Virus record (IMG/VR): IMGVR_UViG_3300030329_004521
Location: 1 to 37,532 of that record
Length of the DNA: 37,532 bases
DNA from: a virus
Direction: 5' to 3' (one strand)
Below, in pieces: positions 28,037 to 31,748 of the stretch. A program made the translations under genes and the position numbers. The notes under the pieces are model-generated. The model was not told the origin of the DNA. It saw nothing but the letters and a program-made list of their open reading frames with translations, and did not search any database. The stretch's first letter is position 1. Each line of letters opens with the position of its first letter.

Positions 28037-28352
28037 AAACCTATCCGCGTATCGTTGCCTGCTGGCAGGAGTCCTGTTGCAGGCGCTGGAGGATTACCAG
28101 TGGTTGCGCAACAAGGGCTGGATCGTGAATGGCGAGATTCTCGACTCACGACCAGACAAGAGAATGAACCATCACTGGACGGGAACAAATGAACTGCGCG
28201 AATTGCAAATGTTCATCTTCGGGCGTGGATGTGAATTATTCATCGACCTCGGCGACCTCGACTTTAACGCGGACTTGTTGCGCCAAAAATGCGAACCGCA
28301 CTACTGGAGCGAACTAAAGGAGAAGAACAACAAAAAATGTCAACCACACTAA
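28023..28352 (+). CDS. Unknown early protein
   Basis: 109 aa. AYRCLLAGVLLQALEDYQWLRNKGW and ELRELQMFIFGRGCELFIDLGDLDFNADLLRQKC resemble a common short phage family in which a helix is followed by an FxxLCEL..DPD-like C-terminus; its function is not known to me. It overlaps the small membrane protein and the following nuclease-DnaA fusion gene (16 bases), so all three are translated together. Confidence 0.6.
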   Translation: MQSNENLSAYRCLLAGVLLQALEDYQWLRNKGWIVNGEILDSRPDKRMNHHWTGTNELRELQMFIFGRGCELFIDLGDLDFNADLLRQKCEPHYWSELKEKNNKKCQPH

Positions 28353-29422
28353 TTACGCCCAAAAACGACTCCCATCTTTACACCGCAAATGGCGAGGCAA
28401 TGCACACTATCATCGGAAAGAATGGCAAGACGCGAAAGACCACATTGGCGGATGCCCGCAAGCTGAATCTATTCTTCTCGGTGACATCCATCCTCAAGCT
28501 GATCCACAACCCGTTTTTGGAATCGTGGAAAATTAACACTGCAATTCTGGCAGCACGCACGCTGCCCAAGAAGGACAATGAAAGTGAGGAGGAATTCGTG
28601 ACGCGCGTCATCGAGGACTATGGATCGACCAGTCGCTTGGCGATGGAATTCGGGTCAAGCATCCACAATGACATTGAGCGGATAAACCTCGGGAAGGCAG
28701 CGCTTAACGCGAAGATCGCAGAATACATCGAGAAGTATATCGAGTGGAAAGAGGAACGGATCGGCAAGGTGCTGGCGGCGGAACAGGTGGTTGTTAATCA
28801 CGATCACGGTTATGCGGGCACACTGGATTTGCATGCCGTCCACAAGGTGCATGGGCCGGTGGTCATTGACTTCAAGACCCAGGCAATCCGGCAGGGGCGC
28901 GAGCCGAATTTCTACGAAAATTTTCCGCTGCAACTGGCTGCCTATCGCGAGTGTCTGCCGGATAAACCAAGGTGCTTGTCGGTGGTGATCAACTCCACAT
29001 CGCCGGAATTGCCCCATGAAAAACTATGGAATGAAGAGGCAATCGAGAATTCGTGGCTGCAATTTTTCCATGCCAACAGGTTGTTCCAGTTGAAAAAAAA
29101 CTATAAGCCGGAATGTTCCCTAGCCGACAAGTCGCCCGCCGAGATGGCGCGGGTTGTCACGGAAGCGGCGGCGGAGGTGTTCGACGTGACTCCGCGCGAA
29201 ATCCTCGGACGACGTCGCAAGGAGCCGATAGTGACTGCGCGCCAAGTAAGTTACTACCTGCTGCGCAAGTGCGGACTGAAATACGAGAGGATAGGGGAGG
29301 TATTCGAGCGCGACCATGCTGCCGTGATCCACGGGTGCAAGCGCATCGGTGATTTGTCCGAGGTGGACAAGAAAATGAAGATCGCCGTCTGCCGACTCGA
29401 AAACATGGTGATGGCAACATGA
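28337..29422 (+). CDS. RecB-like PD-(D/E)XK nuclease fused to a DnaA domain IV
   Basis: 361 aa from ATG 28337. Residues 40-260 have the RecB/Cas4-type nuclease frame: GSSIH (His110), GTLDL (Asp164), VIDFKTQ (Asp178, Lys180) and QLAAY (Gln199, Tyr203). Residues about 275-357 match the DnaA C-terminal DNA-binding domain: AAEVFDVTPREILGRRRK, TARQVSYYLLRKC, then the signature-like ERDHAAVIHGCKRI at 324-337, where bacterial DnaA has GRDHTTVLHACRKI. The RDH part is kept, the two Thr are Ala. No AAA+ domain is present, so it cannot initiate as DnaA does. It may target a nuclease to DnaA boxes or to origins. Confidence 0.85.
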   Translation: MSTTLITPKNDSHLYTANGEAMHTIIGKNGKTRKTTLADARKLNLFFSVTSILKLIHNPFLESWKINTAILAARTLPKKDNESEEEFVTRVIEDYGSTSRLAMEFGSSIHNDIERINLGKAALNAKIAEYIEKYIEWKEERIGKVLAAEQVVVNHDHGYAGTLDLHAVHKVHGPVVIDFKTQAIRQGREPNFYENFPLQLAAYRECLPDKPRCLSVVINSTSPELPHEKLWNEEAIENSWLQFFHANRLFQLKKNYKPECSLADKSPAEMARVVTEAAAEVFDVTPREILGRRRKEPIVTARQVSYYLLRKCGLKYERIGEVFERDHAAVIHGCKRIGDLSEVDKKMKIAVCRLENMVMAT

Positions 29423-30487: not shown

Positions 30488-30670
30488 ATGAAAACTGAAC
30501 AACAACGCAAGCGATGCCACCAGTGGCAGGAGTTCCAGTGCCACTCGAAGGCAAGCAAGCTGAAAGCTGCGCGTGAGCGGATCGTGGGGCAGGTTATTCG
30601 CAAGGAGATCAGCATTGACGAGGGGTGCATCAGAGTGCGGCAGCTTGAGGAGGAAAATGAATGTGGATAG
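30488..30670 (+). CDS. Small basic helical protein upstream of methyltransferase
   Basis: 60 aa: MKTEQQRKRCHQWQEFQCHSKASKLKAARERIVGQVIRKEISIDEGCIRVRQLEEENECG. A very strong GAGGAGGAG precedes the start. Its last 14 bases overlap the methyltransferase start. No motif is recognised; it may help translate the downstream gene by coupling. Confidence 0.6.
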   Translation: MKTEQQRKRCHQWQEFQCHSKASKLKAARERIVGQVIRKEISIDEGCIRVRQLEEENECG

Positions 30671-31748
30671 TTCCAAGACAATTACTCATCTCAGTCTCTG
30701 CACAGGGTACGGAGGCATTGACATTGGACTCAGAAGAGTTCTCCCAACTTGCAGAACAATCGCTTATGTGGAGATCGAAGCCTTCGCCTGCGCGAACCTG
30801 GTCGCAAAGATGGAAGCGGGTGAACTGGATGCGGCACCTATCTGGACGGATCTTAAAACCTGCGACTGGGAAATCTTTCGTGACCGAGTGGATATCCTCA
30901 GCGGTGGATATCCGTGTCAGCCATTCTCAGCAGCAGGGCAGCGAAAAGGAAAAGAAGACCCCAGACACCTCTGGCCATTTATACAGAGGGCAATTGGACT
31001 TATTCGTCCGAGATACTGCTGGTTTGAGAATGTCGAAGGGCATCTTACCCTCGGCTTTAAAGACGTGTGCCACGACTTGGGAGAGTTGGGTTACGAGCTT
31101 ACGGCAGGAATATGCAGTGCGGCTGAGTGCGGCGCAAGTCATCAACGCAAACGAGTTTTCATCTTGGCCCACCGCATCGGCGCGGGATTGGAAGGGTTGC
31201 TATGTGACGCTAAAGCGGAAGGACGGGAAGATGCGGGGCGACTTGCTGCCCGATGCAGTGAACATCGAAGAGAATGGCCCGCCCGACCAGGCGAACCCCA
31301 ACAAGAGTGGGAAGAGCCAAGAGTCGTGGCCGACGCCAAGGGCGGGGAATCCAGGCACCAGAAAACCGGGGACGGGCGGGAAAGTGCTGTCGGAACAAGC
31401 TCAACAGAATTGGGCGACACCGCACGTTCCAAATGGCGGCCAAACGACATCGGGGAGCAAGGACAAGAAAACGAAAAAGCAAATTCAACTACAGCATCAA
31501 GTGCAGAACTGGCCGACGCCGAGGAACATGACCGGAGGCACTTGCAAGAACGGAGCGAAACACTGCGATCTGAACAGCAAAGCCGGCGGCAAATTAAATC
31601 CAAGCTGGGTCGAACAACTGATGGGATTGCCGGTGGGCTGGACGCAACTGCCAACCGAGTGGATCGCCTCCGCCTTCTCGGAAATGGAGTCGTCCCCGCC
31701 ACCTGCGAAGTAGCTTTTCGGACATTGTATGAGGAGTTAAATCCGTGA
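30657..31748 (+). CDS. C5 cytosine DNA methyltransferase
   Basis: 363 aa, complete. Motif I is LSLCTGYGGIDIGL (residues 12-25), motif IV is GGYPCQPFS with catalytic Cys87, motif VI is ENV (124-126), motif VIII is ASHQRKRVF (160-168), and motifs IX/X are NRVDRLRLLGNGVVPATCEVAF (333-354). The target-recognition part (170-330) is low in structure and has VADA, LGDT and LADA repeats. It probably protects phage DNA from host restriction; no partner nuclease gene is adjacent. AGGAGG ends only 3 bases before the ATG, a short spacing. A second open frame runs along nearly the whole gene. Confidence 0.92.
   Translation: MNVDSSKTITHLSLCTGYGGIDIGLRRVLPTCRTIAYVEIEAFACANLVAKMEAGELDAAPIWTDLKTCDWEIFRDRVDILSGGYPCQPFSAAGQRKGKEDPRHLWPFIQRAIGLIRPRYCWFENVEGHLTLGFKDVCHDLGELGYELTAGICSAAECGASHQRKRVFILAHRIGAGLEGLLCDAKAEGREDAGRLAARCSEHRREWPARPGEPQQEWEEPRVVADAKGGESRHQKTGDGRESAVGTSSTELGDTARSKWRPNDIGEQGQENEKANSTTASSAELADAEEHDRRHLQERSETLRSEQQSRRQIKSKLGRTTDGIAGGLDATANRVDRLRLLGNGVVPATCEVAFRTLYEELNP
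30661..31713 (+). CDS. Overlapping frame inside the methyltransferase, WPTP-repeat protein
   Basis: 350 codons, frame +1 relative to the methyltransferase, beginning 4 bases after its ATG and 7 bases after the same AGGAGG, the better spacing. Its C-terminal half carries SWPTASARDWKG (residue 169), SWPTPRA (223), NWATPH (251), NWPTPR (284) and LNPSWVEQLMGLPVGWTQL (312-330), which I recognise as recurring in phage proteins annotated as methyltransferase-related. The four W-x-T repeats coincide with LAHR, VADA, LGDT and LADA of the main frame. Long shadow frames are common in this genome, so expression is unproven. Confidence 0.45.
   Translation: MWIVPRQLLISVSAQGTEALTLDSEEFSQLAEQSLMWRSKPSPARTWSQRWKRVNWMRHLSGRILKPATGKSFVTEWISSAVDIRVSHSQQQGSEKEKKTPDTSGHLYRGQLDLFVRDTAGLRMSKGILPSALKTCATTWESWVTSLRQEYAVRLSAAQVINANEFSSWPTASARDWKGCYVTLKRKDGKMRGDLLPDAVNIEENGPPDQANPNKSGKSQESWPTPRAGNPGTRKPGTGGKVLSEQAQQNWATPHVPNGGQTTSGSKDKKTKKQIQLQHQVQNWPTPRNMTGGTCKNGAKHCDLNSKAGGKLNPSWVEQLMGLPVGWTQLPTEWIASAFSEMESSPPPAK

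Follow-up and report, generated by a model that had tools for sequence, protein, structure and literature searches.

Within a 37,532-nt stretch of viral DNA (IMG/VR virus record IMGVR_UViG_3300030329_004521, positions 1 to 37,532; hereafter, the window), a C5 methyltransferase gene contains a second, conserved protein-coding sequence in its +1 frame, and the two form an overprinted pair with protein-level selection in both frames. Comparisons with relatives indicate that this dual-coding gene probably specifies a C5 cytosine methyltransferase made of two polypeptides (Table 1). Specifically, frame 0 would encode the catalytic large domain (motifs I–VIII, a low-complexity linker, and motif X), and frame +1 would encode a subfamily-specific N-terminal domain, exchangeable WPTP target-recognition cassettes, and motif IX, making it the DNA-recognition small domain. 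The +1 chain would be initiated at an ATG four bases downstream of the main one, using a shared ribosome-binding site, and the active enzyme would be an assembly of both chains, with a specificity set by the cassettes and a role that is most likely the protection of phage DNA from host restriction. We infer the separate initiation, the assembly, the identity of the chain that reads DNA, and the biological role.

Table 1. Features of the overlapping methyltransferase gene, in window coordinates.
Feature	Coordinates	Strand	Basis
Shine-Dalgarno-like GAGGAGG, single copy ahead of both start codons and placed for both	30647..30653	+	sequence, position
Frame 0 C5 methyltransferase, predicted catalytic chain, motifs I–VIII and X	30657..31748	+	PF00145, phrog_363, and M.HhaI matches
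Overlapping +1 ORF, 350 codons: N-terminal domain, four WPTP cassettes, putative motif IX	30661..31713	+	ORF, phrog_1008, stop avoidance, fourfold-site conservation
+1 N-terminal domain, ~168 aa, overlapping motifs I–VIII	30661..31164	+	alignment; fourfold identity 0.62–0.71
+1 cassette 1 (WPTASARDWKGCYV...)	31165..31326	+	common to L002, ~85% DNA identity
+1 cassette 2 (WPTPRAGNPGTRKPGTGGK...)	31327..31410	+	also in L003, L009, L097
+1 cassette 3 (WATPHVPNGG...)	31411..31509	+	sequence
+1 cassette 4 (WPTPRNMTGG...)	31510..31593	+	sequence
+1 motif IX-like block LNPSWVEQLMGLPVGW	31594..31641	+	position, conservation; equivalent block in relatives
Frame 0 motif X RLRLLGNGVVPATCEVAF	31665..31718	+	position, by inspection

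Protein-coding conservation of the +1 frame

The preliminary description of this DNA, made from the letters alone, had reported a +1 frame open for 350 codons and had posed two readings, namely, a real dual-coding gene or a WPTP family that is largely a shadow of methyltransferases. The open frame was confirmed (ATG at 30661, end of the stop at 31713, 350 aa), and it stays open in 24 of 20,000 synonymous shuffles of the window gene, which carry a mean of 4.5 stops. Searches of viral contigs returned 70 loci with the main-frame protein alone and 8 with the +1 protein; at nearly all such loci, the +1 ORF is as long as the gene, and nearly all relatives in the subfamily have overlapping starts a few bases apart, as ATGTG or ATG(n)ATG. 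Among 42 representatives sharing <80% identity, 34 of which came from the main-frame search alone, the +1 frame was open in 40, and internal +1 stops numbered 2 versus 236 expected from synonymous shuffles. The same shuffles gave 287 stops versus 317 expected for 17 other genes of the window and 563 versus 576 for 36 genes beside the relatives, and, because both control sets lie near expectation, we take the test to be calibrated. The two +1 stops belong to related loci, in which TAA is followed by AAA ATG (L001:3322-3330 and L011:3323-3331) and the flanking pieces are both conserved; the +1 N-terminal domain is there split from the rest, as if into two chains with re-initiation.

Conservation was also evident at the level of the +1 product, the similarity of which to the window protein was 2 to 3 times that of synonymous shuffles in all 41 relatives. 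Further, third-base identity at conserved fourfold-degenerate codons was 0.71, 0.62, 0.49, and 0.74 along the overlap, compared with 0.375 (0.254 for mixed pairs; chance, 0.267) in the single-coding DNA past the +1 stop, where frame 0 motif X ends, a tail that serves as an internal control with identical genes and pairs. The preliminary description had named +1 stops in close relatives, or an unreduced synonymous variability of the methyltransferase frame, as signs of a chance shadow. There were almost no such stops, and the reduction at fourfold sites was strong; its dual-coding reading is supported on both counts. A +1 frame held open merely by base composition and main-frame protein constraint, an idea to which the reading of the LADA repeats of cytosine methyltransferases as WPTP in the next frame lends some appeal, is refuted by how rarely stops occur relative to the calibrated controls and by the fourfold-site conservation. 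It is contradicted as well by protein similarity above that of shuffles and by the +1 periodicity, the loci with a broken frame 0, and the in-frame homologues described below, and we regard it as exceedingly improbable.

The frame under stronger selection differs along the gene. In pairs picked by nucleotide similarity, and therefore biased to neither frame, mismatches between motifs VIII and IX amounted to 0.135, 0.031, and 0.052 at main positions 1, 2, and 3, respectively (pairs 90–98% identical). Main position 1 is the third position of the +1 frame, and it is there that the recognition region changes most; the motif I–VIII half and the tail show the substitution periodicity of frame 0. Across the recognition region of 137 loci, there were no +1 stops versus 298 expected and 34 frame 0 stops versus 737 expected, all in L097, L141, L187, and L196, such that frame 0 is open in 133 of the 137, and the third frame is at expectation (1178 versus 1109). 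In L097 and L141, both from the window's subfamily, stops interrupt frame 0 past motif VIII until it is taken up again at motif X, and the +1 ORF is intact; WPTP is thus independent of an intact overlapping frame. Apart from such broken loci, selection holds both frames open. The protein signal between motifs VIII and IX is stronger in the +1 frame, and it is the LADA reading that looks like a by-product. The notion of WPTP as a methyltransferase shadow is rejected and, between these motifs, reversed. A frame 0 that merely connects to motif X might need less openness than this, which counts against the two-chain model. A constraint acting on DNA or RNA, such as recombination repeats or RNA structure, could in principle produce conservation in place of a second protein, and the swapping of cassettes as DNA blocks is in keeping with it. 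We give this explanation next to no weight, given that substitutions follow the three-base periodicity of the +1 frame and that stops are avoided in that frame with the third frame at expectation.

Allocation of motifs between the frames

In C5 enzymes, the large domain comprises motifs I–VIII and X, and the small domain comprises a variable region and motif IX (PMC3404938). The 363-aa frame 0 protein matches the Pfam DNA_methylase family PF00145 at 2.5e-31 (residues 10–204 on profile positions 2–169 of 324), phrog_363 at 1.4e-55, and M.HhaI at 2e-9 (residues 18–176, with the match ending at residue 176), and it contains the catalytic motifs GGYPCQPFS at 30903 and ENVEG at 31026. A recognizable motif IX or recognition domain was absent from frame 0 in the Pfam profile match and the M.HhaI comparison. 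The main frame had previously been described as a complete C5 methyltransferase. Motifs I–VIII and X bear this out, but completeness is unsupported, because the Pfam match spans only profile positions 2–169 and motif IX and the recognition domain go unrecognized. In the two-polypeptide layout that we consider probable as a whole, frame 0 between motifs VIII and X would be a low-complexity linker.

The +1 protein sits precisely where C5 enzymes carry the recognition region and motif IX, neither of which is visible in frame 0. The window +1 protein matches phrog_1008 ("DNA methyltransferase") at 1e-16, and its N-terminal domain has residues that are invariant across the subfamily alignment, including R38, K40, W47, and K52. 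The four W-x-T repeats noticed earlier proved to be the starts of the four cassettes, followed by LNPSWVEQLMGLPVGW; the coincidence of the repeats with main-frame LADA, VADA, and LGDT holds for the last three, with VADA, LGDT, and LADA (31326, 31410, and 31509) each starting one base before cassettes 2 to 4. Position, pattern, and in-frame relatives, rather than a profile match to a solved methyltransferase, suggest that the block after the cassettes is motif IX; a motif IX-like block followed by motif X in one frame also occurs in L187, L196, L197, and L204. Cassettes, as DNA identities indicate, are traded between genes as DNA blocks: window cassette 1 is ~85% identical to that of L002, compared with ~74% for the upstream gene where alignable.

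Structure prediction and database searches covered the +1 protein as well. AlphaFold2 modeled the +1 protein alone (31 sequences) at low confidence (pLDDT 52), and, for an in-frame mycobacterial relative, it gave a good catalytic part that matches M.HhaI, with cassettes at pLDDT <50; neither model resolved a small-domain fold in the recognition region. The +1 protein had no match in Pfam or NCBIfam and no meaningful profile or sequence match to solved structures.

In-frame and split relatives and their distribution

In Mycobacterium prophages (prophi91-4 and its relatives, L209–L219 and L221–L224), motifs I–VIII are followed in frame by 2 to 5 LPTP cassettes and by motifs IX and X; the cassettes occupy the recognition region of the catalytic chain, between motifs VIII and IX. 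A profile of +1 segments from overlapping genes detected all 14 in-frame segments tested, at 6e-13 to 2e-6, and no decoy made by shuffling or reversing them, and L196 and L197 matched at 5e-45 and 1e-38 in single comparisons. On these profile matches, the +1 segment is homologous to recognition-region, IX, and X segments that elsewhere are in frame with the catalytic parts. The conservation of WPTP where frame 0 is broken, together with the catalytic-frame cassettes of the mycobacterial prophages, makes the two products look like halves of one enzyme instead of unrelated proteins. Split versions occur in actinophages and overlap by only ~26 nt; in mycobacteriophage TygerBlood, gp79 has motifs I–VIII, and gp78 has the cassettes, IX, and X. 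Of 155 loci, 143 have motif X in frame 0, and the +1 frame extends into motif X in Alicyclobacillus L187, TygerBlood, and Gordonia phage Geodirt.

Other arrangements were observed in single loci or small groups. Four Mycobacterium prophages (L209, L211, L212, and L221) combine catalytic-frame LPTP cassettes with a second set upstream in the +1 frame of the same gene. Arthrobacter phage 1191A (L203, 2024–3139) has an intermediate arrangement, with motif IX now in the catalytic frame and the cassettes still in +1. In L066 (3001–3979), an indel displaces both overlapping frames jointly and keeps their relation; either a sequencing mistake or a recently arisen mutation could account for it.

The switch of the dominant selection signal between frames near motif VIII would suit programmed frameshifting, in which translation starts in frame 0 and slips to +1 past motif VIII to yield one chain with motifs I–VIII, the WPTP cassettes, and IX. 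The single-chain forms of mycobacterial prophages and the short overlap of the split actinophage forms fit this as well. However, the +1 N-terminal half, which would be of no use to such a fusion, is conserved with a conserved ATG beside the main start, and the presence of motif X in frame 0 at most loci would require a second shift. We consider frameshifting unlikely and favor separate initiation because the +1 N-terminal domain and its ATG are conserved.

Methyltransferases were also gathered by Pfam only from an unbiased bacterial sample, the 60 genomes of which belong to the class of one host, with the +1 profile built without sequences of that class. A +1 WPTP ORF accompanied none of the 31 methyltransferases with an in-frame motif IX-X versus 15 of the 20 without one (P = 5e-9); these 15 include two near-identical copies and the locus that first pointed to the class. 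On inspection by eye, L269, which is among the five exceptions, has such a +1 ORF as well, and loci L229–L261, first tested with a profile that included L189 and L190, were tested again without both. An in-frame motif IX and a +1 ORF are mutually exclusive in this class-wide sample. The +1 product might instead be a separate, unrelated protein (for example, a regulator or anti-restriction factor) overprinted on an already complete methyltransferase, as its own start, an N-terminal domain without known relatives, and a frame 0 held open throughout would allow. Single-chain enzymes, which have homologous cassettes and motif IX in the interval from motif VIII to motif X, speak against this, as does the finding that the class-wide sample has a +1 ORF only where frame 0 is without motif IX, and we hold it to be quite improbable.

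The +1 profile found at least 80 viral loci among the matches listed (510 candidates confirmed), in addition to 33 bacterial contigs from many phyla, and all 113 of the listed loci overlap a methyltransferase ORF in an identical relative frame. It had been proposed to look for WPTP proteins in genomes with no overlapping methyltransferase frame. No WPTP protein separate from a methyltransferase turned up among these 113 loci. However, WPTP is conserved where the main frame is broken. Distant family members are matched by named phages of Paenibacillus, Mycobacterium, Arthrobacter, Gordonia, Acinetobacter, Escherichia, and others and prophages or prophage-like plasmids of Klebsiella, Salmonella, and Marinobacter; DNA resembling the E. 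coli phage gene, by DNA-level similarity, is present in 66 E. coli genomes. The layout appears to recur in many unrelated phages and prophages, with its second half usually unannotated. We lean toward the view that these genes represent a large and mostly unrecognized class among the C5 methyltransferases of phages and prophages, in which two interleaved polypeptides share one stretch of DNA, the recognition half is built of tradable cassettes in the overlapping frame, and indels can shift cassettes between frames, thereby interconverting two-chain and one-chain enzymes.

Relation to known enzymes

The small chain of M.EcoHK31I is read from an alternative frame within the large-chain gene. In this two-polypeptide C5 methyltransferase (YGGCCR), motif IX alone is in the small chain, and motifs I–VIII and X are in the large one (PMC3404938). 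It is the closest precedent by motif layout, with I–VIII and X in one chain and IX in a second. Unlike in M.EcoHK31I, the window +1 ORF takes up almost all of the gene, begins beside the main start, and has an extra N-terminal domain; the recognition region is apparently in the +1 chain here and predicted in the large chain there, and the window layout recurs in phages of many hosts. M.AquI is a split C5 methyltransferase with its two chains parted between motifs VIII and IX (PMC3404938). It resembles split actinophage genes, such as TygerBlood gp79/gp78, and it differs from the window gene in that its small subunit has IX and X, whereas motif X is here in the catalytic frame and the genes overlap almost completely.

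Parts of this arrangement have been recorded in databases and annotations. The family phrog_1008 is matched by the window +1 protein and by every one of the 32 sequences in the +1 alignment, and its label is silent on members lying in the second frame of another methyltransferase. In Paenibacillus phage Diva, DIVA_50 ("g49 internal gene") is an annotated +1 CDS inside the cytosine methyltransferase DIVA_49, with similar cassettes and motif IX; compared with the window +1 ORF, it is shorter, has an internal start, and is annotated without a function. We found no discussion of the internal gene in P. larvae phage papers and no paper on this overlap as a class. In the multispecific phage C5 methyltransferases SPR, phi3T, and rho11, the stretch from motif VIII to motif IX holds exchangeable recognition modules, each ~40 residues long and arranged in tandem. 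The window cassettes are likened to these by arrangement, and they differ in being in the +1 frame, given that the modules share one chain and one frame with the catalytic part.

If the two-chain reading is correct, many of the genes whose annotation is a lone "DNA cytosine methyltransferase" would have no recognition domain in the annotated frame, the annotated ORF cloned alone may give an inactive enzyme, and a target-site prediction made from it would rest on the wrong protein. The gene would also stand out in double-stranded DNA phages as a dual-coding gene of unusual length and wide occurrence, with an overlap explained by its encoding two halves of one enzyme, and it would become testable whether the exchange of overlapping-frame cassettes drives phage escape from restriction. 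Elsewhere in the window, a 377-aa protein (28289–29422, + strand) matches the DnaA C-terminal DNA-binding domain at 1.2e-18 and, weakly, a PD-(D/E)XK nuclease at 4.6e-4, just under the family cut-off.
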